A DNA stretch of 32,313 nucleotides from a virus. This document shows, in pieces, positions 647-32,313 of the stretch (position 1 is the stretch's first letter; every line of letters begins with the position of its first letter). The notes under the pieces were generated by a model that saw only the letters and a program-made list of their open reading frames with translations, was not told the origin of the DNA and did no database searches. Location: the IMG/VR virus record IMGVR_UViG_3300008120_000179, positions 1-32,313 of that record. One strand, written 5' to 3'. The translations under genes and the position numbers were made by a program.

Positions 647-1096
647 TTAGGTTACGCTGATTCGGTCACGGAGACCGTTGGCGGCCATCCGCATGAGTGC
701 AGGGATATGATCGTTCGCTGCGATGGTGCCGATCTGCGATTGGTTCGTCAATGTGGTTACGGTCGAAACTGTCGTGACCGTACCTACGCTTGTGACCGTT
801 GCGAGGGTGAGCGATGCGGAAATCGAGTCGATCGCCACCCGCAGACGCGCGGCCGTGTCTGGCATCACCAGACCTAGCCCCGAACGGGTGAGAGATTGAG
901 TAGCCATGCGCAGAGCTTCGATAGCTTCGAGGAGTTCGCCGTAGACAACCGTCGGCATTGGGTTTGATTCGCTGACGTCGGTAGCAGAGCCGTCCGCACC
1001 GACGCCGATCTTCACGCGCTGGTGAAGTACGCCGCCGATGTCGTCAGCTGCGATGCTTGCACCCGTGCCGGGCGTGTACCCTACATTGTCTGGCAT
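647..1096 (-). CDS. Small virion-associated protein (hypothetical)
   Basis: This 149-residue protein starts one base after the preceding stop, with GGGAG upstream. Residues about 25-50 carry a VKIGVGADGSATDV segment of a kind common in small phage structural proteins. A short helical stretch (LLEAIEALRMA) follows, then a Val/Thr repeat region at about 98-120 (TVTSVGTVTTVSTV) that probably forms regular beta strands, as in fibre shafts. It lies within the run of small genes between major capsid protein and head-tail connector, directly before the kelch-like appendage gene. A head-fibre or appendage component is the likeliest role; no enzyme motif is visible. Confidence 0.6.
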   Translation of the reverse strand: MPDNVGYTPGTGASIAADDIGGVLHQRVKIGVGADGSATDVSESNPMPTVVYGELLEAIEALRMATQSLTRSGLGLVMPDTAARLRVAIDSISASLTLATVTSVGTVTTVSTVTTLTNQSQIGTIAANDHIPALMRMAANGLRDRISVT

Positions 1097-1097
1097 C

Positions 1098-1307
1098 TTA
1101 TGCTCCCATGAGTAGGAATGGATGGAATGATTCTCCGCCGCCCGTACCCGCAGGCACGTCGGTTTGGAGATAGATGTCCCCGTCCGTACCGCCCGAAGGC
1201 GAGGCCGTCCCCGACGTTATCGGCAGGGCTACCGGGTCGATGACGTCGGATGATGTTATTTCCGACAGGCTGCCCGATGCGTTGATTAGTGGCTTCTTGC
1301 GTGCCAT
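1098..1307 (-). CDS. Short fibre-like structural protein
   Basis: This is a 69-residue protein. It contains a GGTDGDIYLQTD segment (about residues 39-50), which resembles the G-D-G-D-I-Y-L motif found near the ends of many phage fibre and appendage proteins. The C-terminus FHPFLLMGA is hydrophobic. The start lies two bases after the preceding stop, and the next gene begins one base after its own stop, so the three genes are probably translated together. The role is inferred from context and the short motif only. Confidence 0.55.
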   Translation of the reverse strand: MARKKPLINASGSLSEITSSDVIDPVALPITSGTASPSGGTDGDIYLQTDVPAGTGGGESFHPFLLMGA

Positions 1308-1309
1308 CG

Positions 1310-1816
1310 TTAGGCTAACGTTATTGGTTGTTGCTGCTCAAACGCGATCGCCGTGGCGCTGATTGCGATGCCGATCTCTTGCGAGATGTGGCCAGACGTC
1401 GACGGAGCCGTAGCCGTGGCCGCCCCTGCTGTCGAACCGCTGAGATAGTAAGCCACTCCCGGCGTGAGCGAGCTTAGCCCCGTGAGGTCGCCGCTCAAAT
1501 ACACCGTTGCGTTGTTCGGCGAGGTCGTGCCTGCCAGGACGAACCCGTGCGCGCGCCGGCCGTTGGAAGCGTCCGCCTTGCGTGCCTTGCGCGTGCCGGC
1601 GTCGTTCCAAATGTTCACCAGATCGCCCGCGCTGAGGTTCTCGCTCGATGCCATCACCTCGGTATCGGCGCCGATGCCCGAAGGCATAAGCGAGTTGTCG
1701 AGACGGCCCGACGAATCGAGCTGTGGGATTTTGCCAGCATCGCCCGCACCTGCTGAGGTCTGCGTGCCTGTGACTTCTCGCAGCTGGCCTGCGTTGTTTT
1801 CTAGGTATTTCGCCAT
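1310..1816 (-). CDS. Head fibre/decoration-like beta protein, paralogue of the next gene up
   Basis: This 168-residue Ala/Gly/Ser/Thr-rich protein has an N-terminal linker (GKIPQLDSSGRLDNSLMP, about residues 28-45) typical of fibre proteins. It is followed by a beta domain at about 50-160 with LSAGDLVNIW, then GFVLAG, then YYLSG, then IGIAIS. The same order of motifs (LTAGVSLSAL, VIGITS, VYLGSNGTLT, VGRALT) occurs in the neighbouring 139-residue protein, so the two probably share a fold and arose by duplication. Such small domains decorate capsids or fibre tips in many siphoviruses. The assignment is by pattern and position. Confidence 0.6.
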   Translation of the reverse strand: MAKYLENNAGQLREVTGTQTSAGAGDAGKIPQLDSSGRLDNSLMPSGIGADTEVMASSENLSAGDLVNIWNDAGTRKARKADASNGRRAHGFVLAGTTSPNNATVYLSGDLTGLSSLTPGVAYYLSGSTAGAATATAPSTSGHISQEIGIAISATAIAFEQQQPITLA

Positions 1817-1819
1817 TTG

Positions 1820-2239
1820 TTACACCGTTTGAATGATTGTGTCAATGTCGATTTGTAGTGTCGTAGCCGTGAGCGCCCTGCCCACATGCACGAGGATAGC
1901 CCCGCCCGATGGCGCCGTCTGAGTGAGCGTTCCGTTGCTGCCGAGGTAAACCGTGCCCTTAGTCCATGACCACGATGCATCTGTCATAATGCCAGACGTT
2001 TTGATGGTCACGCCCGCGCCCGCGACGGCCGCGTTCGACGTGATGCCGATCACCTGCGCATTGGCAAGCGTATCGTTCGATGCATACACCGCTTCGCCGT
2101 TGGCGTCGGATGTCACCGCACGAAGGGCGGAAAGACTTACACCTGCTGTAAGTGAAACGTCGTCCGAGATTGGCACGAGGCCGCCGCCGCTTATCTGCAA
2201 GCGGATGTTAGGGCGCTCTATGCGGATGGTTCGGTTCAT
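1820..2239 (-). CDS. Small beta-rich virion protein (decoration/appendage candidate)
   Basis: This 139-residue protein has its start codon overlapping the previous stop (ATGA), so translation is coupled. The sequence is a string of short strands and turns: LTAGVSLSAL at about 30-40, VIGITSNAAV, VYLGSNGTLT at about 97-106, and a closing VGRALTATTLQIDID. This resembles DUF2190-like and fibre-appended domains, in which a variable value is followed by a G-x-LT turn and a terminal V-G-x-A-x-S/T strand. No catalytic motif is seen. Its neighbour of 168 residues looks paralogous. A virion surface role is inferred. Confidence 0.6.
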   Translation of the reverse strand: MNRTIRIERPNIRLQISGGGLVPISDDVSLTAGVSLSALRAVTSDANGEAVYASNDTLANAQVIGITSNAAVAGAGVTIKTSGIMTDASWSWTKGTVYLGSNGTLTQTAPSGGAILVHVGRALTATTLQIDIDTIIQTV

Positions 2240-2589
2240 GGACGCGTCACCTGATCTATGATGACTGCATCGCCGCGGACTAGCTCTTCGCGGATGCCGG
2301 CGTTCGTTTCAACGATCGTAAACAGATAGTCACCGCCGGCCACAAACGCGAGCGTCTGAGCATCCGAGAGTGCCACGGAAAACTGCCCTGCTGCCGCGTT
2401 GGTGATTGTACATGTTGCCGTTGCGATGAGCGTATCGTCTGGCGTTCGGAACTGGCATGAGTACGAACGCCCGGCGATGTTCTCCGGAGTTGCACCGTCG
2501 TAGATGTCAATGACGTATGCCCACGCCGTCCCGCGGACGATCTCCGCGCGGCTCTGAGCGCCTACGTTTGAAAGAATGAACTCTGACAT
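2236..2589 (-). CDS. Ig-like small structural protein
   Basis: This 117-residue protein has a compact beta-sandwich pattern: GTAWAYVIDIYD (about 20-31), YSCQFRTPDDTL, TCTITNAAAGQFSVAL, YLFTIVE, then VRGDAVII at the end. This order (G-t-hydrophobic strand, a 'quality of range' strand pair, then a final G-x-v-x-v strand) resembles the N-terminal Ig-like domain of siphophage baseplate-upper-type proteins. It is preceded by a 56-base gap containing a hairpin and has only a weak GGAAAG ribosome-binding site. Position after the capsid and its likely decoration gene suggests a head-surface or appendage protein. Confidence 0.55.
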   Translation of the reverse strand: MSEFILSNVGAQSRAEIVRGTAWAYVIDIYDGATPENIAGRSYSCQFRTPDDTLIATATCTITNAAAGQFSVALSDAQTLAFVAGGDYLFTIVETNAGIREELVRGDAVIIDQVTRP

Positions 2590-2645: not shown

Positions 2646-3119
2646 TTATACGATGAGGTTAACGGCTGCGCCGCGTTCGGCTGCGGACGTTGGCGTTTCG
2701 TTGGCATTGCCAAGATTCGCCCACGCCACAAGAAACGTGCCGGCTGTGCCGTCGCCGGCCGTCGCCACAAGGTCTAGGTAGCGCTTGCGCCCCGCCATGT
2801 CTACAAAGAACTTGTAAATCTTGTTATCGTCCGTCGCACTTGGAAGCGCCGTAGCACTACCCGTGTCCGGGTCAATCGCAGTTCCGAACACCGTGCCCGG
2901 AACATCCGTTGGGCTTGACAGTGTAGTTGCGTTCGTGGCAACGTCGGACTCTTGCAGTCGAAGGTTAGTCATAGCGATGTCGGTATCACCGAGCAACACG
3001 CATATTTCAACCTTGTTGAATCCGAACGTGTCTACGACGTTCGTTGTGAACGAGCCGTTATCCACGCGCGCGGCCGGCGTGACGATTGCGACGGTTCTGT
3101 TCTGTTGAAGCAGGTTCAT
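2646..3119 (-). CDS. Capsid-adjacent structural protein (decoration candidate)
   Basis: This 157-residue protein begins at the ATG at 3119, chosen for its strong AAGGAGA ribosome-binding site; the longer open frame to 3242 would run into the capsid gene. It opens with a short N-terminus and then strands such as VDNGSFTTNVVDT, KVEICVLLGDTDIAM, and NKIYKFFVDMAGRKRYLDLVATAG near 115-138. Proteins of this size and composition often directly follow the HK97-type capsid gene and are found in virions. The strong ribosome-binding site fits high-copy production. It may be a cement or decoration protein; no family name can be given with certainty. Confidence 0.6.
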   Translation of the reverse strand: MNLLQQNRTVAIVTPAARVDNGSFTTNVVDTFGFNKVEICVLLGDTDIAMTNLRLQESDVATNATTLSSPTDVPGTVFGTAIDPDTGSATALPSATDDNKIYKFFVDMAGRKRYLDLVATAGDGTAGTFLVAWANLGNANETPTSAAERGAAVNLIV

Positions 3120-3130
3120 TCTAAATCTCC

Positions 3131-4606
3131 TTAGTTCTTGGTGACGATTGCAGCCAGTCCGCCACGCTTCCGGTTTGCGGCCGTCGAAGAAGCGTTGCCG
3201 ATGTTCCACCAATTGAATCCGTAGCGCGCCGTAGACTTCCAATAGAGCGTGTCGTTGAGATACCCCGCCTCGGTTGACGGCGTGATAGAAAGCCCCATAC
3301 GATCGTACATGATGCCGGACACGTCGGCCGAACCAACGAACGCGAGAAATTGGTTGTTCTCAGCGGTCAGCAGCGGCGTGTATAGTTCATCAACGAACAC
3401 GACTTCCATTCCGTTGAGGAACTGACGTTGCACACCGTCGATGATCTGCGTCGTCGTGTTGCCAGAGGCGGCGTTCATCAGCGGCACGATTTGACCAAAC
3501 CAGATTTGCGACGGAACGTAGAACCGATTGATCAGCCCCGGCCACGTCGCTACCTTGGCTTGCGCCTTGTAGATGTCTGCAAGCGTCAGCGATGCGACTG
3601 TCGAACCCGTAGCAAGCGCAATGCTAGCAGCGCGAAGCTTGTCGGCGTCCGTTGCCCACGTCCCGCCCGTGCCGGTTACCAGCGCCTTGAAAGCCTCGGT
3701 AACTCCGACGATGCCGTTGTACGTTGACGTGCCGTCACCGAGGAAAGCGGCGCGGTCTTCAAAGACGGCGTGCTCGTAACCGTGGTCGCGAGCAACTTCT
3801 TCGCCGAGGTTGGCGAACGCGTCCTCGTTGATTTCCATCGTGGCCTGTGTCACAGCGCCGAACTTCTTGGCCGTGACCATGATCTGATCAAACTTCACAT
3901 CGGAAGTCGTGTAGGTCTGCCCTTCGCCCAATGCACGAACCGACGTGCCGCCGACGTTGCGAGCAAAACGGCGTGTCTCGGTTGAACCGGTCACTACCTC
4001 CATGATGTTGCGAGCGACGCCGCGCTCTTCGCGGTAGTAACGAATCGCCGTGTCGAGTTCGTCGGTGACGATCAGACCGCCGAGGGCGTCGTTGCCTTCG
4101 CTCTGCAACTTCACGCGGAAGTCTACGCCTTGCTCCTTGCAGAAGCGTTGCGCTTGCTCGTTGCCGAGGTAGGCGGCGATCTGAGCACCGGCCTTGTAAG
4201 CGGCCTTTTCAGCGTCGGCGCCATAGGACTTAAAGCCCTTGCCGCGGTAAGGACGCGTCTTGACGCGAACGTCTGACGTGGTGACCGTCGAACCGGCCGG
4301 GGCCGTGAAAGCAGGGCGCAAACCTTCGAGGGCTGACGCGTTCGACTTTTGCAGGTTGATGAGGTTGCGCTTTGCCTGCATGGCGGTTTCGATCTGTCCG
4401 ATCTTCGCCATCGCCTTAGCTGCGCCTTCCGATGCGGCTGCAATCTCCTCTGTGGTTGCCGTTGCGCTTGTCGCTTCGGCGATCATTGCGGCCAGCTGCT
4501 CGCGAATGGTTGCGAGTTCTGCGGCCATTGCTTCCGGCGTTTCGTACGTGCCTGCAAGCACGGCGTCCAGCGACGAAAGCAACTCATCCCATGATTTAGT
4601 TTTCAT
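3131..4606 (-). CDS. Major capsid protein, HK97 fold
   Basis: This 491-residue protein follows the prohead protease gene with an 11-base overlap and has an AAGGA ribosome-binding site. Residues about 1-100 are Ala/Glu-rich and helical, as in the delta (scaffold) domain of HK97-type capsid proteins, and would be removed by the protease. The rest shows typical features of the Phage_capsid family: GGLIVTDELDTAIRYY (about 175-190), the spine-helix region EEVARDHGYEHAVFEDRAAFLGDG (about 270-293), and a C-terminal segment with LAFVGSADVSGIMYDR and a Trp/Phe/Asn-rich end. It assembles the icosahedral shell. The length suits a protein with a built-in scaffold, and no separate scaffold gene is seen. 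Confidence 0.93.
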   Translation of the reverse strand: MKTKSWDELLSSLDAVLAGTYETPEAMAAELATIREQLAAMIAEATSATATTEEIAAASEGAAKAMAKIGQIETAMQAKRNLINLQKSNASALEGLRPAFTAPAGSTVTTSDVRVKTRPYRGKGFKSYGADAEKAAYKAGAQIAAYLGNEQAQRFCKEQGVDFRVKLQSEGNDALGGLIVTDELDTAIRYYREERGVARNIMEVVTGSTETRRFARNVGGTSVRALGEGQTYTTSDVKFDQIMVTAKKFGAVTQATMEINEDAFANLGEEVARDHGYEHAVFEDRAAFLGDGTSTYNGIVGVTEAFKALVTGTGGTWATDADKLRAASIALATGSTVASLTLADIYKAQAKVATWPGLINRFYVPSQIWFGQIVPLMNAASGNTTTQIIDGVQRQFLNGMEVVFVDELYTPLLTAENNQFLAFVGSADVSGIMYDRMGLSITPSTEAGYLNDTLYWKSTARYGFNWWNIGNASSTAANRKRGGLAAIVTKN

Positions 4607-12926: not shown

Positions 12927-13303
12927 GCGTGCCCCCAGACTACGTTGTCGTCCTCAGCTGATGGCGTGTTCGGCTTAGCCCTGTGCTCACGCCTCTCCTC
13001 CCACTCGCCCGTATCGATGCACGGCAGAACTTCGATTTTAGCTTCAGGGGAGATGCATCCTACATCTATCGCGCGGCTCTCGGCGTCGCTAATGTAGTCA
13101 GAGACATAGTACACGTTGTTATTAACCCGCACCATCCAGCCGGTTGGCGGCCGCTCTGGCAGTGCCTCACGCAGGGCCATCAATGCGTCGTGCATGTTGT
13201 TGCCCGATGCAACATCATAGTCGCCCGTCATATCGTGGATGCTGATGTGCTCCATCACTTCGTCGAGTCGCTCGTGTATCGCAATGATTTCGTGTGGCGT
13301 CAT
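12923..13303 (-). CDS. Hypothetical early protein
   Basis: I do not recognise this 126-residue protein. It overlaps genes on both sides by ATGA, so it is translated in a coupled chain. It opens with an amphipathic helix ([19 protein letters not shown]), has a helical middle ([20 protein letters not shown]), and a beta part ([23 protein letters not shown]). The C-terminus is acidic and Trp-containing. It is soluble and acidic, a composition often seen in early phage proteins that act on host factors. No catalytic motif is seen. Confidence 0.7.
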
Positions 13304-13584
13304 GGCATCACCTCCACACCTAGCCCCGCGAAGACATCGGCCATCTGTGAGCTTAAAATCTTCGCCCCCTTGAGGTTCGCCCCGCGCAGGTTCACCCCGT
13401 GAAGGTTCGCCCCGCTCAAGCTCGCCCCTTCTAGGTTCGCCCCGTACAGGTCTGCCCCGCTCAGGTTCGCCTCGTTTAGGTTCGCCCCGTACAGGTTCGC
13501 CCAGCTTAGGTTCGCCCTGCTCAATGTTTCGGCGTCCACGGTGTGCAGGATAGCGCCGGTAGTCTGATGTTTGATTTCAATCAT
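13300..13584 (-). CDS. Pentapeptide-repeat protein
   Basis: This 94-residue protein contains about eleven consecutive A-N/D/S-L-x-x pentapeptides from about residue 24 to 75 (such as [20 protein letters not shown]). These would fold as a right-handed beta-helix of nearly three coils. Known pentapeptide proteins such as Qnr and MfpA mimic DNA and bind gyrase, but those are about twice as long, so such a role is uncertain here. The start has AAAGGA upstream and a short CA repeat before it. The start codon overlaps the stop of a 38-residue membrane peptide gene. Confidence 0.85.
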
Positions 13585-16441: not shown

Positions 16442-16635
16442 GGAACCACCTCGATTTCAGACACGAATACGTTGCTTTTTGCTGATTGCACGTGTTCGGC
16501 CAATGAATCGGCCTTGCTTTCAATCCATGCCGCAATCTCGCTTGCGACGCGGACGTCGTGAACCTCTCGGATAATCTGCGCGGCGGTATCGATCTGCCGG
16601 AGCTTGTAAAGGATCATGGCTTGTTCGGCGTTCAT
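16438..16635 (-). CDS. Small helical protein, downstream copy of a tandem duplication
   Basis: This 65-residue protein starts at 16635, overlapping the preceding stop by ATGA. The first 43 residues are nearly identical to the 57-residue protein encoded just upstream (Ala3 versus Thr3 is the only change); 126 bases of DNA differ at only four positions. After KAD this copy continues with SLAEHVQSAKSNV and EIEVVP, probably the original end. It is helical and soluble. Function unknown. Like the upstream copy it has no clear independent ribosome-binding site other than GGAGG at seven bases. Confidence 0.75.
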   Translation of the reverse strand: MNAEQAMILYKLRQIDTAAQIIREVHDVRVASEIAAWIESKADSLAEHVQSAKSNVFVSEIEVVP

Positions 16636-16845
16636 TTCACCTCCAAACGTGAACGTGTGATAAGGGCGCAACCTTCGTCGGCCTTGCTTTCAATCCATGC
16701 CGCAATCTCGCTTGCGACGCGGACGTCGTGAACCTCTCGGATAATCTGCGCGGCGGTATCAATCTGCCGCAGCTTGTATAGGATCATGGCTTGTTCGGTG
16801 TTCATTTTACCTCTAGACGGTTACGTGTGATAAGCGCGCACCCTT
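16462..16845 (-). repeat. 170-bp tandem duplication
   Basis: Bases about 16632-16845 reappear at a 170-base offset at about 16510-16675. The inner 126 bases (16680-16805 versus 16510-16635) differ at four positions. The 44 bases derived from the end of the Gp157 gene differ at about nine. The join occurs at a short shared CGAAGG, which suggests unequal crossing over or replication slippage. Confidence 0.9.
16632..16805 (-). CDS. Small helical protein, upstream copy with a Gp157-derived tail
   Basis: This 57-residue frame starts at 16805 with an ATGA overlap and ends with an ATGA overlap. Residues 1-43 match the neighbouring 65-residue protein, but the end (EGCALITRSRLEVK) is a copy of the last 14 residues of the Gp157-family protein (EGCALITRNRLEVK). 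It is therefore a hybrid made by a 170-bp tandem duplication whose unit begins in the end of the Gp157 gene. The frame is intact and coupled, so it is probably translated. Its function is unknown. Confidence 0.75.
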   Translation of the reverse strand: MNTEQAMILYKLRQIDTAAQIIREVHDVRVASEIAAWIESKADEGCALITRSRLEVK

Positions 16846-17356
16846 CGACGGGGACGCCGTTTTTGAGAGCGTCAGCAATGGCCTTCTTATCGATCGTCTC
16901 TTTCTCGACAACCTTCACGACGCGGTAATCTGCCGGGATGAGCGACTCATCGCGGACCTCCACGGCGGGCGGGTTCTTCCGGAGCTTCAAGGTCCAAAGG
17001 TCGGTCACGATCTCCGTGATTTCGGAATGCTGCATGTAGTGCATAATCGCGCTCTGCAACCGTTCGGCCCGGCGCTTTCGCATGTCGCGTAACGTCTGCA
17101 ACCTCTCGATTTCGTGGTCGATACCAACGACCGACATTTGCAGATCGGTGGCCCGCTCCATGAGCGCCACGGCATAGGCTTTGAAATCGTCGTACGATTC
17201 CTGCAACGCGAGTTCGCAATAGGCGATTACTTCCGGCTCGTCGGTGTGCATCATGGCGTCGATGAGCGCCATAACCCGATAGGCTGACGATGTGCGCTCT
17301 TTGATCGGTTCGGCGTGTTCGGTGAATACGAGCGGTTCGGCGGCTCTAGTTTCCAT
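16802..17356 (-). CDS. Gp157-family (siphovirus) protein
   Basis: This 184-residue protein matches the Siphovirus Gp157 family (PF05565). The central coiled coil contains GIDHEIERLQTLRDMRKRRAERL (about 78-100), followed by WTLKLRKNPPAVEV, the conserved 'l-R-K-N-P-P-x-v', then LIPADYRVVKVVEKETIDKKAIADALKNG, and a C-terminus VEGCALITRNRLEVK. The family has been linked to phage resistance in Streptococcus, but its molecular job is unknown; it usually sits beside recombination genes, as here. Its last 14 codons have been copied into the next gene. Confidence 0.9.
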   Translation of the reverse strand: METRAAEPLVFTEHAEPIKERTSSAYRVMALIDAMMHTDEPEVIAYCELALQESYDDFKAYAVALMERATDLQMSVVGIDHEIERLQTLRDMRKRRAERLQSAIMHYMQHSEITEIVTDLWTLKLRKNPPAVEVRDESLIPADYRVVKVVEKETIDKKAIADALKNGVPVEGCALITRNRLEVK

Positions 17357-27054: not shown

Positions 27055-27636
27055 TTATCCGAACACGACCTCACCATAAGGCGCTGTCGTTGCGCCGATG
27101 GTCGTGGTTGCGCCTGTCGTTGCAAACAGCGCGTGGACAGCGCTAGGAATCAGCAGGTCCTTTTCGAGCTTCTGCGCGATACAAACCAAGTTCGGCTTCA
27201 GGTATGTACCTGAAGAGAAATTGATTGATCCCGAACTCTGCGCGACCTTGAAAAGACCGAAATACGATAGGGTCTTGTTCGCGTCCGCGCCGCCTACGAT
27301 CTTAGGCCCCTTGAAACCAGCGGCGAGGGTTGTCCCCGTTGCAGCTGACCCGAGACGCGTATCGCCGTCCTCAAAGGGGACGTCTTCCGGCACGACTCCA
27401 GTAGAGACGCCGGCGTAGGTTTTGACGAACGTGTGAAAAGCCGAATCCGTTTGGATTTGGTCGAGGGTGAAAGTCGGTACGCCCGCGTCGTCCTTTGCGC
27501 CGTCCGTGCTGATCTGCGCTTGGCAGGTGTAGACGGGCGTGGTCGATGTGAGCGTCGTTTGGGTCGTGCCTACGGTGATGGAATAGAACGCTGAATAAGC
27601 GCCCCCACCGATCCCGTAGCCTTCAAACTTTGCCAT
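27055..27636 (-). CDS. Major tail (tube) protein
   Basis: This 193-residue protein has a GGAG ribosome-binding site and overlaps the glycosyltransferase gene by 14 bases. It is beta-rich with little charge: FYSITVGTTQTTL, VYTCQAQISTDGA, FTLDQIQTDSAFHTFV, a Gly/Ala/Thr-rich middle (TGTTLAAGFKGPKIVGG), and a strand-rich end. It is followed by a strong terminator, which fits a protein needed in many copies. Position before the chaperone and tape-measure genes is the best evidence. It would form the stacked hexamer rings of the tail tube. Confidence 0.75.
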   Translation of the reverse strand: MAKFEGYGIGGGAYSAFYSITVGTTQTTLTSTTPVYTCQAQISTDGAKDDAGVPTFTLDQIQTDSAFHTFVKTYAGVSTGVVPEDVPFEDGDTRLGSAATGTTLAAGFKGPKIVGGADANKTLSYFGLFKVAQSSGSINFSSGTYLKPNLVCIAQKLEKDLLIPSAVHALFATTGATTTIGATTAPYGEVVFG

Positions 27637-28453
27637 GTTTAGACTCCAGTTGTCTTAGTGATGAAATCTCGCGAACGTACACGTCTTCGTAGTAACGTCG
27701 GAGTTCGTGTTTCGGATGATCGCCTAGCCATCTGCCGATCAGAGTGGCGTTGCGCTCCAATTTCCGAATGAGTGCGCCGTCATCCTCCGAGTAGCCGTTG
27801 TGGATGACAACCAATGATGTGTCGACGATGCTGTAACCAGCGCCGCGGACCGCATGCGCGATTTGTTCGTGTGCGTAGCCCTCCCAACGAAGGGCCGGCA
27901 CGTTTCGATAGAGTCGTAATTGTTTGACGCTTGCATATTCGCAGTCGCCTCCGAGCATCTGCGGGTAGCGCGTCATGTGCGCCTGTGCTGCGTAGAACCC
28001 ACCGACGCCGGCGCCGTGACCATAGGCCGCGTAATTGATGCCGTCGTGTTGCGCGTGTGCGAGCATTTCGTCACAGTCGATCCAAAATATCCACTCGCAA
28101 GTGGCCATTGCTTGGCATAGGTTACGCGCCATCGCAAATGAAAACTTGCCAGCAGGGTACTTCCACAGTTGAGAGCGTACCGTACGCTGCGGATGCAATG
28201 CAACGTCAACCTCCGTTATCTCGCCTTCGCCCTTGTGCGGCTCGTTAAGCAAGATGCAAACCTGCGCATTGTTTGGCAGGGATGCCATACAGCGGCTGAG
28301 CGCCTTCAGGTCTTCCGGCCTTGCGATGATGCAGAACGACACGCCGAACGTATCGCGTTCAACGACGGCCTCCGGCGCCTGTTCGCTCTGTTTTGGTGCG
28401 GCCTTGTTTGCCTTCGGCGCGGTGGCCTTGTTCTTGGTTGGTTTCGTTGCCAT
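27623..28453 (-). CDS. Family 2-type glycosyltransferase
   Basis: This 276-residue protein has a disordered Lys/Ala/Pro-rich N-terminus (about 1-30), then a GT-A fold: SFCIIARPEDLKALSRCMASL (39-60), the FSFAMARNLCQAMA helix, WIFWIDCDEM with the DCDE metal-binding motif at 126-129, an acceptor-region segment (KQLRLYRNVPALRWEGYAHEQI) and a C-terminal helical part. These are typical of GT2 enzymes using nucleotide sugars. There is no membrane helix. It sits between tail-terminator and tail-tube genes, so it may glycosylate virion proteins. AGGACAAGA precedes its start. Confidence 0.85.
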   Translation of the reverse strand: MATKPTKNKATAPKANKAAPKQSEQAPEAVVERDTFGVSFCIIARPEDLKALSRCMASLPNNAQVCILLNEPHKGEGEITEVDVALHPQRTVRSQLWKYPAGKFSFAMARNLCQAMATCEWIFWIDCDEMLAHAQHDGINYAAYGHGAGVGGFYAAQAHMTRYPQMLGGDCEYASVKQLRLYRNVPALRWEGYAHEQIAHAVRGAGYSIVDTSLVVIHNGYSEDDGALIRKLERNATLIGRWLGDHPKHELRRYYEDVYVREISSLRQLESKHGKV

Positions 28454-28465
28454 ATTCTTGTCCTG

Positions 28466-28930
28466 TTACTGGAGGATTGTGATAATGCGAGCCAGCCCAG
28501 TAATGCCAACGCGCACCTTGTTTTCTGCCATACTGAAGTCCCCGCTTGCTCCGGTGACGGCAAGCGTTACGAGATGTGTTTGATACCGTCCGTCGGTTGC
28601 GGGTTCGGCTTTGTTCGTGTCGAAGTTGTCGATGCGATATTGAATGCGCGACGCGATGCCGGCCATGACGTCAGACGCCACGCCCTTCTTTGATGGGTCC
28701 GCAGGGGCCAGCCCGTTGCAGAGGATGTCGAACGGCACTTCTGCCAGCCCATGCCCGCGGCTATTCTCCGAGGCTGTGTCGTAGTTGAGGGAGACGCAAT
28801 ACGGATAGCAGACGATTTTACCGTTGACGAATGCCTCATCGTCAAACGTGCCCGCGACCATGATTTGCGGGTCTTCGCGTAGAATGTCCGCGATGGTCTT
28901 GCGAACGAAGGCAAGCGGTGACGTGTTCAT
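28466..28930 (-). CDS. Tail terminator/completion protein candidate
   Basis: This 154-residue protein overlaps the previous gene by ATGA. An N-terminal helix (FVRKTIADILREDPQI) is followed by strands (MVAGTFDDEAF, KIVCYPYCVSLNYDT) and a C-terminal strand group (YQTHLVTLAVTGASGDF, NKVRVGITGLARII). Its size, the helix followed by a beta sheet, and its place after the gp10-like gene and before the tail tube match tail terminator proteins, which cap the tube and join it to the head. Assignment is by context. Confidence 0.65.
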   Translation of the reverse strand: MNTSPLAFVRKTIADILREDPQIMVAGTFDDEAFVNGKIVCYPYCVSLNYDTASENSRGHGLAEVPFDILCNGLAPADPSKKGVASDVMAGIASRIQYRIDNFDTNKAEPATDGRYQTHLVTLAVTGASGDFSMAENKVRVGITGLARIITILQ

Positions 28931-29544
28931 TGTCCGGCCCCTTGCAACTCGTCGATGACTTCTGCGATTATGTCGTCGATCAGCTCCGGCAAACCTTCTG
29001 CCATATACTTTGCTTTGCCCGGTGCCAGAAATGGACGCGCGGGAATGGTGATGGAATGGGGGCGTGTCACGGGCAACTCACGACCCGTCTTTGCGAAGTA
29101 TTGCGCGGCCTTAACCTTCGTTACAAATACGGCTTTGCCTTTAACGATTCGGTACGGCGTGCCGCCCGGATGTTGAATCGTGCCGCCGTACTCATGTAGC
29201 ATGCCGTAGCGCAGGTCTCCAACGCGCTTCCCCTGTTTGACTGACGTCGACGGGTTAAAACCAAACTCCAAGCTGATAATGGTCTTTGAGTCTGCTTCCA
29301 CCGTTGACACGTTGCCTTTGCCTTTCGGCGTCAGCGCGCGCGTGAGGTTGCCGTAGAGCGTCCGTAGTTGAGTGCCGCGGTTGGGCGGCAAACGGCGGCT
29401 GCCGTCTTTGCGTCGCTCCGGCTTGGTGAATATCATTTCGTCGAGGATGTACGCAGACAGCTCCCCCGGCGCGCGTTGCATGGCGCCTTTGACGATTCGC
29501 TGGATTGCGCGCTCCAATGATTGCAGACGGCCGGCGATGCTCAT
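28927..29544 (-). CDS. HK97 gp10-like tail completion protein
   Basis: The ATG at 29544 overlaps the preceding stop (ATGA) and gives 205 residues. Features include RLQSLERAIQRIVKG near the start, MLHEYGGTIQHPGGTPYRIV (about 113-132), and a segment RPHSITIPARPFLAPG (about 170-185), which matches the 'I-P-A-R-P-F-L' motif of Mu gpG/HK97 gp10-like tail completion proteins. These act at the head-tail joint or tail end during assembly. Helices at the C-terminus (LIDDIIAEVIDELQ) are usual. Confidence 0.8.
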   Translation of the reverse strand: MSIAGRLQSLERAIQRIVKGAMQRAPGELSAYILDEMIFTKPERRKDGSRRLPPNRGTQLRTLYGNLTRALTPKGKGNVSTVEADSKTIISLEFGFNPSTSVKQGKRVGDLRYGMLHEYGGTIQHPGGTPYRIVKGKAVFVTKVKAAQYFAKTGRELPVTRPHSITIPARPFLAPGKAKYMAEGLPELIDDIIAEVIDELQGAGQ

Positions 29545-30116
29545 ATAACGATCCTTCGATACGGCCGCAGACGCGGCTCGATCTTCGCCCGTGCCGATGT
29601 GATCGTCTTCGACACCGACACACCGCCGGCGCTGTCGGTGATTGCAGACACGCCGAACCGAGAGCCGCCCGGCGCGAATGCCGATGCGAAATACAACTCG
29701 GTAACAAGCTCGTAGGCGCACAACTCTATAACGTTCGGTACGGTTGCGTAGCCTGTCGTTGCAACGATGCGATATTCGGCGGCCGTCCATGTTCCCGTTG
29801 TGGCCAGATGTTGCACACCATCAACGGAGACAACCGAGGCCGTCCCCGTGATGGGCGCAAAATCTTCTGTCATGTTCGCGCGCGATGCAACCGATACAAG
29901 CGTCATGGGCACGGTTAAACCGAGCCACAAGAGATGGTCGGTTGTGCCGCGTACATAGTACGTGCATTGCTTCGCAACTATCGACTGACCGCAGATGTCC
30001 TCGATCTCATTCTCCGCAATGGTGATCCATCGGTCGAACGTTTTGTCGAGACTGTTATCTGATGCCGGGATGTTGAGATAGTCCTGTTTCAGAACGGCGC
30101 GCGAGCATATCGGCAT
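29541..30116 (-). CDS. Head-tail connector protein (gp6-like)
   Basis: This 191-residue protein begins with helices that fit the gp6/gp15 connector family: RAVLKQDYLNIPASDNSLD, then FDRWITIAENEIEDICGQSI (about 28-47), followed by strands (CTYYVRGTTDHLLWLG, VPMTLVSVASRA, AAEYRIVATTGYATVP), and the helix IELCAYELVTELYFASAF. The C-terminal IEPRLRPYRRI is the usual final segment. It would form a ring under the portal. It lies next to the gp10-like gene, the standard order. Confidence 0.85.
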   Translation of the reverse strand: MPICSRAVLKQDYLNIPASDNSLDKTFDRWITIAENEIEDICGQSIVAKQCTYYVRGTTDHLLWLGLTVPMTLVSVASRANMTEDFAPITGTASVVSVDGVQHLATTGTWTAAEYRIVATTGYATVPNVIELCAYELVTELYFASAFAPGGSRFGVSAITDSAGGVSVSKTITSARAKIEPRLRPYRRIVI

Positions 30117-30119
30117 GGC

Positions 30120-30500
30120 TTAGCCCTCGCTCTTTGTGTCGGCCGTGTTGAAAGCTTGGTAGATTTCAACGATGCCCCACACGACGCCCGTGACCAATGC
30201 CTCGGTGACGTTGCCCAGGCTGATGCCGAACACGGTAGCCAGCATGAACGCGGCTTTGATGACTCCAGAGATTGTCGTCTTTGGGTCCTGCATAACGACT
30301 CCTAAATAGATTTGAAAAATGAACGGCATGAGCCGAATCTTATCCCATAGTGAAAGGCTTGGCGGTTCGGGTTTGAACCCAAAAGGCAAAGCGTCCAGCG
30401 GCTTCAGAGCGGCGCGCGTCACGATCTCTTCGACGTGTGACGTTGTGCGCTCTGGCCTATGAATAGGCCGCGGTGGTGTTTTGGTGATGAGCTCATGCAC
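30120..30500 (-). CDS. Membrane protein, holin candidate
   Basis: This 126-residue protein has a basic, Pro-rich N-terminus (TPPRPIHRPERTTSH), then a hydrophobic stretch MPFIFQIYLGVVM (about 58-70), and after QDPKTTISGVIKAA (about 71-84) further hydrophobic segments, FMLATVFGISLG and LVTGVVWGIVEI, ending in a polar tail. The 'D-P-K-T-T-x-S-G' start of the hydrophobic part resembles several predicted phage holins. It overlaps a second membrane gene by eight bases. Holins make the pore for lysis. No endolysin is found beside it, so confidence is limited. Confidence 0.5.
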   Translation of the reverse strand: MHELITKTPPRPIHRPERTTSHVEEIVTRAALKPLDALPFGFKPEPPSLSLWDKIRLMPFIFQIYLGVVMQDPKTTISGVIKAAFMLATVFGISLGNVTEALVTGVVWGIVEIYQAFNTADTKSEG

Positions 30501-30744
30501 GGCCTATGCCCTGCCTCTCTTCGATGCGAACCAGGCGTTCGATCATGTTCAGAATCTGCCTGCTATGCTCCTTGTCGGCGCGCTGCAGTTCGATGATGGT
30601 GTCTGTAGTGCTTTTGAGACTGACGTGCATTTGTATCGTCGTTTCACGCGTCTGCCGCGTCTCTGCGATGAGCGACTTCAGGAAATGGCCGATGACGGCT
30701 ACCATGCTTGACAGAATCAGACCGATGAGGATTTCAGGTGTCAT
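30493..30744 (-). CDS. Membrane-anchored coiled-coil protein (lysis accessory candidate)
   Basis: This 83-residue protein begins at 30744, four bases after the previous stop. A transmembrane helix (EILIGLILSSMVAVIGHFLKSLI, about 4-26) is followed by a long amphipathic coiled coil (IIELQRADKEHSRQILNMIERLVRIEER). The layout resembles spanin- or XhlA-like lysis accessories and small membrane regulators. It overlaps the holin candidate. Orientation and role are inferred. Confidence 0.55.
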   Translation of the reverse strand: MTPEILIGLILSSMVAVIGHFLKSLIAETRQTRETTIQMHVSLKSTTDTIIELQRADKEHSRQILNMIERLVRIEERQGIGRA

Positions 30745-30748
30745 TGCT

Positions 30749-31084
30749 TTATGGTGTGATTTCGGATCCGAAGACTTGGTAGGTGATCGCGGCGCCCGTG
30801 CCGGAGCGAACGGTGACAACGTCGTTGTTGTCGAGCGTCACGCCACGCGCCACTTCTACCGTCGTGTTTGCAGGCACCGACACGGCGAAGCTGTGATAGT
30901 GTTCGTTGGCAATGCTTGCGTTGTTCTTCCGAAACGCGAGTCGATAGGTAGCCGCCGCGCCCGTCAGGTTTGCAATGCTGATGAGCGATATGACCGCGCT
31001 CTTTCCAACGGGCACCGTGTAAACATCGGTGTCAGCTGTGCCTGCGGGGCATGACTGCCCGAGAATCTTGTAAGAGTTTACCAT
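30749..31084 (-). CDS. Small beta-sandwich virion protein
   Basis: This 111-residue protein starts at 31084, just after the preceding stop. It has KILGQSCPAGTADTDVYTVPVGKSAVISLISIANLTG (about 6-42), then TYRLAFRKNN, HSFAVSVPANTTVEVARGVTLDNNDVVTVRSG and a closing ITYQVFGSEI. This pattern is widespread in phages and metagenomic virus contigs near head or tail fibre genes; it forms a beta sandwich. It probably decorates the virion. It is part of the appendage gene run. Confidence 0.7.
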   Translation of the reverse strand: MVNSYKILGQSCPAGTADTDVYTVPVGKSAVISLISIANLTGAAATYRLAFRKNNASIANEHYHSFAVSVPANTTVEVARGVTLDNNDVVTVRSGTGAAITYQVFGSEITP

Positions 31085-31085
31085 G

Positions 31086-31241
31086 TCATTTCCAATCGCC
31101 AGATGTTTTGATGTACGGCTGCGATACCTTCCACGTGCCAGCGACACGGCGCCATGTCCGCGCTGACTTCCACACCCCAGAGAGCCGGACGTGTGCAACC
31201 GTTACAAGGGCGCCTTGTGGAGATAGAAGCGTTAGTAGCAT
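31086..31241 (-). CDS. 51-residue virion-associated small protein
   Basis: A 51-codon frame starts by TAATG overlap with the preceding gene and ends two bases before the next start. The sequence repeats a Trp-Lys motif: SGVWKSARTWRRV, AGTWKVS, SGDWK. Short 'G-x-W-K' repeats are common in phage fibre or tail-associated proteins. The tight packing between neighbours is the main evidence for its being real. Confidence 0.65.
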   Translation of the reverse strand: MLLTLLSPQGALVTVAHVRLSGVWKSARTWRRVAGTWKVSQPYIKTSGDWK

Positions 31242-31405
31242 TACCGAAGGCTTTCGAGTTTCGTCAGCAGCTCTGCGAGGTTGTTGATTTCGATCTCCAG
31301 GCGATCGACCTGCTCAACGTCACCGACGGCATAGGCCGAATCGTGAAGCCGAACGAAATGATTGCGGCGATTTGTAACGAGCGTGATGAGTGTTTCGAGG
31401 TCCAT
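31241..31405 (-). CDS. 54-residue helical small protein
   Basis: A 54-codon frame starts one base after the kelch-like gene stop and overlaps the next gene (TAATG). It is helical: LETLITLVTNRRNHFVRLHD, then VEQVDRLEIEINNLAELLTKLE. Such short two-helix proteins are often found in phage virion operons. No function can be given. Confidence 0.65.
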   Translation of the reverse strand: MDLETLITLVTNRRNHFVRLHDSAYAVGDVEQVDRLEIEINNLAELLTKLESLR

Positions 31406-31406
31406 G

Positions 31407-32313
31407 CTAGATCACCATTTGACGGAAGGTTGCTTGTACGCCGTTTGGCACAAGGTAGATATAGTCAATTTCGGTATCACCGTCACGATAGGTTGCGTCG
31501 AACATCGTTTCGAGCTGGCCGCTACCAGACTGTGGGAAGAGCAACGTACCCCAGCCGTCCATCGATGACCTAGCGACGTCAAGGCGAAAGCATCGGCCGG
31601 TCATTTCCTTGGTGACATAGATGGCGTCTTTGCAATATGCGTAGCGCGTTCCGGCACCAAACGTTTCTGTAGCAGGTGCATACGTCAGCGCTGCCCATGC
31701 GTTGAGCGCGATGTCATAGCGATCCAACGAAGCGCCTGAGCCGCGGAATGAGTAGATATAACGCCCGTTCTGGATGGCGTTCTCTGACGTCCAATCCGTA
31801 GCCAATACGCTATGCACCCACGTTCCCGAAAGGGCCGTACCCGGAGCGCCTGCACGCGCGACGCCCGGCGCCAACGTTGTCCACGTGTTCCCTGAGATCG
31901 AGTACCGATACATCGCAACGGCGGCATTGCCCATCAGATAGATGAAATCGTCGTTGCCTTCGATGCTGTACTGTGACGTTGCATCGGGTTGCGTTGTCCA
32001 TGCCGCGGACGTGGTGATGACCGTGCCGGTGTTGGACGCCACCGTTCGAATCTGTCCTGCACCCGTGCCTGCCGTGATGCGGATTTGAAAGTTTGTCCAT
32101 GAATTCGTGGTCCACGCCTTCGCCGAATTCGTCAGCGTACTAGCGCCGCCTGCCGTAGCCGTGCCCGTGGCGAATGCCTTATAGCCAGTATCAATCCATG
32201 ACGGCGTAGATACCAGTTTCGCATCCGTGCCGAACGTTGCAGGAAGCCCCGTGTTTGCCAGCGTGACCCACGAGTTCGTTGCAAAGTCGTAGCGCTTGAA
32301 AGAGCCTGATGCC
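31407..32313 (-). CDS. Kelch-like head appendage/fibre protein, C-terminal part (starts at 635 across the join)
   Basis: This is the rest of the 475-residue protein that starts at 635. Bases 32200-32313 repeat 1-114, so the gene proper runs from 635 to 1 and then from 32199 to 31407. It contains a second copy of the Thr/Gly-rich insert (TGTATAGGASTLTNSA through SQYSIEG) and blades FIYLMGNAAVAMYRYSIS, YIYSFRGSGASLDRYD and IYVTKEMTGRCFRLD, typical of kelch repeats (hydrophobic-Gly-Gly-like strand, Tyr, then Trp). No ATG occurs between the left edge of this part and 32042, and a GTG there is not needed once the join is taken into account. It is probably a head-surface appendage or fibre with sugar- or protein-binding ability. 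Confidence 0.75.
   Translation of the reverse strand, partial: ASGSFKRYDFATNSWVTLANTGLPATFGTDAKLVSTPSWIDTGYKAFATGTATAGGASTLTNSAKAWTTNSWTNFQIRITAGTGAGQIRTVASNTGTVITTSAAWTTQPDATSQYSIEGNDDFIYLMGNAAVAMYRYSISGNTWTTLAPGVARAGAPGTALSGTWVHSVLATDWTSENAIQNGRYIYSFRGSGASLDRYDIALNAWAALTYAPATETFGAGTRYAYCKDAIYVTKEMTGRCFRLDVARSSMDGWGTLLFPQSGSGQLETMFDATYRDGDTEIDYIYLVPNGVQATFRQMVI
32200..32313. repeat. Right copy of exact terminal direct repeat
   Basis: Identical to 1-114. See the left copy: it shows that the molecule is circular or circularly permuted, with a unit of 32,199 bp. Confidence 0.97.

Follow-up and report, generated by a model that had tools for sequence, protein, structure and literature searches.

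A probable modular fibre locus beside the capsid gene of a viral contig, with a proposed stalk homologous to a known neck fibre, a separate predicted Ig-like anchor and a kelch head cassette

The genes that follow the capsid gene in the viral contig studied here most likely make up the locus of a modular fibre, with a stalk homologous to a known neck fibre, a separate Ig-like anchor and a head cassette built around a kelch protein. The window, by which we mean the whole stretch of 32,313 bases that was analysed, has identical first and last 114 bases, which fits a contig that is circular and 32,199 bp long. Twelve genes on the minus strand, eleven small ones and a kelch gene encoding 475 aa, lie between the capsid gene and a gene in the connector position, and from the capsid side their order is A-B-C-D-E-F-K-G-H-I-J-holin-like gene. 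We give a probability of roughly 0.65 to the reading that B-C-D-E-F-K, together with the distal G, H and I, encode a virion fibre that is attached at the neck, at the junction of head and tail.

The minus strand encodes terminase, portal, protease and capsid proteins, a tape measure of 1,140 aa and the neck and tail genes. The capsid gene (3131-4606) is of the HK97 type (PHROG 10 major head, E=3.9e-23; Pfam Phage_capsid, 62.8 bits); its protein has no match among named phages, and the only two close relatives by capsid protein are fragmentary and both near-identical to the window. An earlier note on this DNA had claimed an island of appendage genes between the capsid and connector genes. The island is present, and its order is kept in 56 related loci (L009-L063 and L067), all of which carry A-B-C-D in that order while 22 of them reach the connector-position gene, a conservation that is confirmed to be more than chance. 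The earlier note had placed the island at 30749-31405, a span that holds the distal genes G, H and I only, and its name of connector for the gene at 29541-30116 (minus strand) finds no backing, as that gene is without a match in PHROG, Pfam or NCBIfam; it is kept at the same place in the 22 clade loci, and the gene next after it (28927-29529) matches Neck1/tail completion. Ten of the island proteins have no NCBIfam match. The genes had also been described as not usual in this position, and their composition is indeed unusual, but the position is stable in the clade, and bead cassettes lie near head and neck genes elsewhere (Flavobacterium phage 11b, L111 and L122).

Some further features of the genome can be recorded here. 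The nearly identical contig L003 (1-5104) lacks two segments that the window has, the first comprising the end of the capsid gene and the start of A and the second inside B, and these deletions are either natural variants or assembly errors. A glycosyltransferase-like gene (27623-28453; weak PHROG and Pfam GT2 matches) lies between the neck and tail genes, is kept there in the clade loci and is possibly involved in virion glycosylation; phiPsal1 also has glycosyltransferases between its capsid and neck genes. At 13300-13584 there is a gene for a pentapeptide-repeat protein of 94 aa (Pfam, 89 bits), seen in the DNA as repeats spaced by 15 nt, and at 16508-16847 a tandem duplication of 170 bp with copies that are 93% identical.

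The earlier suggestion that the island encodes fibres is well supported, and so is an adhesin of the beta-propeller type. Residues 30-131 of C (1820-2239, minus strand, 139 aa) match residues 132-234 of gp82 from the Anabaena myophage A-1(L) (PDB 8keg chain a, labelled neck fiber gp82N; E=2e-11), which is the C-terminal domain of gp82, and only about 28 residues stand ahead of this bead domain in C. D (1310-1816, minus strand, 168 aa) is 49.7% identical over residues 16-168 to A1L_81 of the same phage, annotated as a neck fiber (E=4e-28), a homology seen in a multiple alignment as well; a search with its sequence among solved structures gave chance matches only. The genes gp82, gp81 and gp80 are adjacent in A-1(L), just as C, D and the cap are here. 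The accessible part of the A-1(L) report (PMC10966104) describes five neck fibres of about 100 nm each, held by a 15-fold ring of the neck (gp5), every fibre combining a single trimer of gp82, some 14 of gp81 and one of gp80. Mixed in vitro, gp82, gp81 and gp80 also formed chains of beads; in the same part of that report, no host binding was found for the distal module. A host-receptor role would thus be hypothetical even for the A-1(L) fibre.

The bead proteins are widespread. D matches 63 phage records, some of them annotated as capsid fiber protein or head decoration protein D, and it is 45-56% identical to its counterparts in KPP25-type phages, N4-like roseophages and the Acidovorax phage ACP17. 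In KPP25 the homologues of B (ORF087) and C (ORF086) are recorded as structural and that of D as hypothetical. A scan of bacterial and archaeal genomes found 62 loci with relatives of D, in Nocardia, Methylobacterium, Pseudomonas, Delftia, cyanobacteria, Chlorobiaceae, Magnetococcales and others, and when these are taken together with 13 other loci, C is next to D in 72 of 75 and B is upstream of C in 34 of 75. The two genes at 1310-1816 and 1820-2239 had been proposed as likely paralogues, and this stands at the level of profiles, where both match PHROG 4368 (E=4e-20 and 3e-17) and cross-match each other, but a paralogy visible in the two sequences directly had to be given up, since BLASTP found no mutual match.

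B (2236-2589, minus strand, 117 aa, PHROG 1084) is predicted to be the anchor of the fibre. Its AF2 model (pLDDT 85, from 14 sequences) has an Ig-like anchor fold of the BppU, p132 and whisker type, with the L-shaped-tail-fibre proteins of T5 and DT57C as the best match (Z 13.4, rmsd 2.0 over 108 residues to 7qg9_J), and further similarities are to neck chains of Sf14 and Bas63 (Z 10.7; 9c39_J and 9mt4_H), a neck chain of P74-26 (Z 9.3), the Ig-like portion of the adaptor of R4C (Z 8.1) and BppU-type baseplate proteins. As far as the available parts of the two papers describe them, the neck whiskers of the Shigella phage Sf14 are made of gp30 and gp31 (PMC11821841) and the R4C adaptor has an Ig-like attachment domain (PMC10276861). 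The structure 8keg is absent among the fold matches of B, which excludes nothing, and the profile of B has no match to gp82 of A-1(L). The same profile matches PDB 26dk_M (E=9.4e-10), which is the ORF087 protein of a KPP25-type phage; the capsid protein of that phage is in PDB 26de and 44ny and its ORF014 protein in 26fb, and no published paper behind these four entries was found in the literature.

Between the capsid gene and B lies A (2646-3119, minus strand, 157 aa, PHROG 5707), conserved in 56 of 56 clade loci and always next to B. Its AF2 model (pLDDT 78) is a beta-rich sandwich with weak fold matches, the best to YomS (Z 9.0) and others to capsid decoration proteins (Z about 7), and its profile has no solved relative. 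Judging from this model A may be a capsid decoration protein or a part of the neck, and there is a weak case that A alone among the island genes could still be a capsid decoration protein. Beta structure is predicted for A and B only, the two proteins that were modelled, and the statement in the earlier note that nearly all of the island proteins are beta-rich was too broad, as the products of 30493-30744 and 30120-30500 have membrane-type hydrophobic stretches.

E (1098-1307, minus strand, 69 aa) is proposed to be the adaptor that ends the stalk. Its profile matches the N-termini of R7L gp39, of a 619-aa protein of ACP17 and of MMDA13 gp22, and it corresponds, for example, to residues 1-60 of R7L gp39, a protein of 677 aa. 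The gene after D has an E-type N-terminus (at least 9 bits) in 41 of 75 loci. The background is 4 among the N-termini of 1277 other ORFs, and at least two of these four also belong to genes located after D; in this comparison the next genes were scored over 110 residues and the background over 26. From this difference we infer that the free-standing E is the N-terminal docking part of cap proteins found elsewhere. Further matches of E are to the far C-terminal ends of two tail-fiber PHROGs. Tandem E-type proteins, a 68-aa one followed by one that is fused to a glycine-rich head, are seen in L025, L035, L053, L061 and others, and in L065 (10588-11112) a cap protein with an E-type docking start itself contains a bead domain. 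A docking N-terminus shared by D and E was considered as well, but the similarity is weak (1.6 bits for D of the window and a median of 4.35 for D proteins, with a median of -1.5 for shuffled sequences and 4 of 480 shuffles at 5 bits or more) and we keep it as a hint without leaning on it.

Two motifs stand in the C-terminal part of E, DGDIYLQ and, at the very end, HPFLLMGA, and each can be related to a different neighbour. In the clade, E ends in FLLMG and gene I is present in 27 loci, neither is the case in 8, and none of the 35, the window included, is discordant. Of the 77 genes preceding F, 21 have a DGDxY end motif, while the other 7095 ORFs yield a single one, in the E of L003. Both sets of counts are to be read with the knowledge that the regular expression and the FLLMG test were written after the sequences were seen, and the counts are not independent, as the same sites contributed many nearly duplicate IMG/VR loci. 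Gene I (30749-31084, minus strand, 111 aa; PHROG 1276, weakly PHROG 693 tail fiber) is a candidate second distal domain, with homologues in several aquatic phages, at 42-48% in phiPsal1 and ct2KA10. The E of the window bears both motifs, and F-K and I are both present in the genome, which suggests, from the sequences, that E may present two different heads, the DGDIYLQ segment serving the kelch protein with its linker F and the HPFLLMGA end serving I.

The head cassette begins with F (647-1096, minus strand, 149 aa), the proposed head-linker, which precedes the kelch gene K. K starts at 635 and reads down to 31407 across the identical 114-bp ends of the contig, so that it appears in the window as two parts on the minus strand (1-635 and 31407-32313). 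It carries a kelch motif (Kelch_4, 24.6 bits against a Pfam cut-off of 21.6), as does its relative in L163 (Kelch_6, 30.8 against 25.3), and it has homologues in the cyanophages S-CRM01, MinM1 and Pam2; F matches Pam2 at 43% (E=8e-21). The helical-looking partner G (31241-31405, minus strand, 54 aa) resembles a 55-aa gene of MinM1 (z=7.7, reached by 0 of 1000 shuffles) and a 53-aa gene of Pam2 with z=1.3 only. H (31086-31241, minus strand, 51 aa) has a repeated GxWK motif and matches the C-terminus of PHROG 6977, a minor tail protein. The scan with F took in 80 of 124 loci, and the 81 rows that were examined are 79 of these, the window and L003. In the rows with enough downstream sequence, in which the window and L003 are included where long enough, K comes directly after F in 76 of 76, G after K in 56 of 68 and H after K in 24 of 67.

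The cassette is found in different settings. In another group of phages (L174, L175, L189, L190 and L210) F-K-G lies between the portal and protease genes, so that the cassette is mobile among head-gene neighbourhoods. In 13 rows F is the first gene behind the portal gene and lacks a neighbouring stalk gene, and since F-K-G stands in this way in several loci, K may not need the bead chain. Among the papers listed in literature searches on kelch proteins in phages, we found no description of an F-K-G-H cassette. A kelch-type protein, CBB_552, is part of the virion of the jumbo phage CBB according to the mass spectrometry in the accessible part of its description (PMC5259590).

What ties the beads, the adaptor and the cassette together is the exchange of parts between relatives. 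In L162 and L163 the order is portal-protease-MCP-A-B, then a single collagen-like protein of 246 aa, and then F-K, with G-H also present in L163. The N-terminus of the collagen-like protein resembles the N-termini of the clade C proteins (z of up to 14.3 compared with shuffled sequences, and above 4 with 54 of the 57), and it ends in GTAAPSGGNDGDWYAQYT, similar to the segment TSGTASPSGGTDGDIYLQ of E, with GTAxPSGGxDGD as the common motif. L163 thus swaps C-D-E for a collagen-like rod and keeps the capsid gene, A, B and F-K-G-H, and this is our ground for reading C-D-E as a stalk that links the anchor to the head; most simply, the same anchor and the same head would be joined by either of two stalks, C-D-E or the collagen-like rod. 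The heads are exchanged as well: of the 56 clade loci, 34 cover the whole stretch between D and J, and of these 20 have a YPF-type head of 270-290 aa, 14 a glycine-rich head and none a kelch head. Pfam recognizes Gly_rich_2 in the two glycine-rich heads tested, and it names none of the tested YPF-type head, gp80 and R7L gp39. In 43 further loci the gene after B is a bead C in 17, a collagen-like gene in 3 and another gene in 18, and the remaining 5 end at an edge. A tentative generalization, to which we give somewhat less than even odds, is a plug-in platform with one Ig anchor, two interchangeable stalks, at least three heads and short peptide connectors, in which the E of this phage would display two heads.

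We hypothesize that the fibre would be built as follows. The Ig-like domain B would be the anchor and C the first, proximal bead, docked on B by its N-terminal strands, and D would be the repeating subunit, whose copies join head to tail to form the chain of beads, following the example of gp81 and the gp82 C-terminal domain in A-1(L). E would end the chain and offer its short C-terminal connectors, and F would join the kelch propeller K, and probably also I, as the distal head, which could touch a glycan or another surface. The order of the genes would then mirror the order from anchor to tip. The site of attachment, the order of assembly, E as the terminator, K and I as heads and the ligand are all inferred.

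Not all genes of the island need to belong to the fibre. It is likely, and fully compatible with a fibre, that some of the small genes, J and 30120-30500 and perhaps A, have to do with lysis or with capsid assembly. J (30493-30744, minus strand, 83 aa, PHROG 1863) has an N-terminal membrane-type segment with a mean hydropathy of 2.05 over 19 residues, the holin-like gene (30120-30500, minus strand, with its start at 30500 or at an internal ATG at 30329) one of 1.86, and in L163 a metallophosphatase and a CHAP endolysin are found beyond the holin-like gene, which is itself a possible holin. These two genes are probably related to lysis and not to the appendage, and we counted nothing against this; for A, on the other hand, the constant neighbourhood with B in the clade could mean a structural link.

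The neck attachment, which we hold to be right with a chance of about two in three, is read from the analogy with A-1(L), from the position of the genes in the clade, between the capsid and connector-position genes, and from the position of the cassette in other phages. In Flavobacterium phage 11b, for whose proteome we found no openly available paper in the literature, the cassette lies between the genes for the head-tail adaptor Ad1 and Neck1, in L111 between the portal gene and the protease and capsid genes, and in L122 immediately behind the capsid gene. Among the nine genome loci whose prophage context was covered, however, the Methylobacterium prophage L105 has the cassette after the baseplate-wedge and tail-fibre genes, so the cassette does not by itself imply a neck location; in L140 it follows the major tail protein. 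The same bead-chain fibre might therefore sit on the tail, laterally or on the baseplate, with its position on the capsid side of the genome being incidental. Besides L105, the best folds of B, which are the anchors of the T5 p132 and DT57C tail fibres and BppU baseplate proteins, agree with a tail site, and in Pam2 F-K adjoins genes annotated as distal tail, collagen-like and minor tail. We nevertheless consider a tail fibre unlikely, as neck fibres are the closest relatives of C and D with a solved structure, the clade and 11b have the cassette among head and neck genes, and B resembles the neck chains of Sf14 and Bas63 too.

About as improbable, in our view, is that F-K-G-H is an independent appendage with its own attachment, that the bead chain carries I or nothing, and that the two merely have a locus in common. 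The 13 rows with F directly behind the portal gene would fit this, as would the fact that a stalk with the motif precedes F in only 21 of the 77 testable rows. The near exclusivity of the DGDxY end motif to genes before F speaks against it, as does the collagen-like stalk of L162 and L163, which starts like C, ends like E and has F-K behind it.

For the neck fibre, finally, the decoration of the capsid surface, with fibres standing on the shell, is a still more doubtful alternative: MinM1 has its F-K-G closely behind a DUF2190 (cement-type) gene, and A, with its place after the capsid gene and its model, would suit it, as would a sub-threshold cement match of C, but a lambda-gpD-like cement had to be rejected for C and D, with C reaching 17.7 bits for Phage_cement_2 (PF09956, DUF2190) and thus staying below the cut-off of 24, the homologue of B in the KPP25-type phage is in 26dk and not among the capsid entries of that phage, and the D homologues of A-1(L) form neck fibres. 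The decorated capsid that the earlier note had envisaged is weaker than the neck, since the nearest solved relatives of C and D are the five neck fibres of A-1(L) and no capsid coat, and the reading of capsid decoration as the main function is probably wrong.

Bead genes are spread over many bacterial groups, in phages as well as genome contigs, and stalks and heads are exchanged between close relatives. This exchange gives assembly rules that can be tested, i.e. which end motif takes which head, and many genes beside capsid genes that are now called hypothetical would be explained as parts of a single accessory adhesion device.

Among known systems, CBB_552 of phage CBB is comparable by its kelch type alone, as a virion protein of a different phage in the accessible part of PMC5259590. 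The whiskers of Sf14 (gp30 and gp31; PMC11821841) and p132 of T5 and DT57C share the Ig-like fold of B, but this is a similarity of fold only, they are not bead chains, and the two are found at different sites of the virion. MinM1, Pam2 and viral contigs of freshwater type have F, then a kelch protein and then a gene of about 54 aa, as the window does, but their stalks are collagen-like, other fibres or no adjacent stalk gene at all, and the bead proteins C and D were not matched in these F loci. The KPP25-type phages, the N4-like roseophages, ACP17 and Flavobacterium phage 11b are like the window in the other half of the locus, which again runs B, C, D and then a cap gene, but they have other caps (R7L gp39, annotated as sialate O-acetylesterase, that of ACP17, annotated as carbohydrate-binding, and others), and the kelch cassette was not matched in their loci.

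The nearest system is the neck fibre of A-1(L), besides which we found no second published bead-chain neck fibre in the literature searched. The beads are homologous and in the same order, C corresponding to the C-terminal domain of gp82 and D to gp81, and the gene for the distal cap comes next. The differences are that the window has an HK97-type capsid and a long tape-measure gene, that its anchor is the separate Ig-like gene B where A-1(L) has the fused gp82N, that its genes lie between the capsid gene and the connector position while those of A-1(L) are far from the structural genes, and that its cap consists of E, F and the kelch protein, possibly with I, in place of gp80, which neither E, F nor K matched in the comparisons made. 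With no homologue of gp80 and a different set of proteins as the cap, the fibre of the window is a variant of the A-1(L) type and not a member of it.
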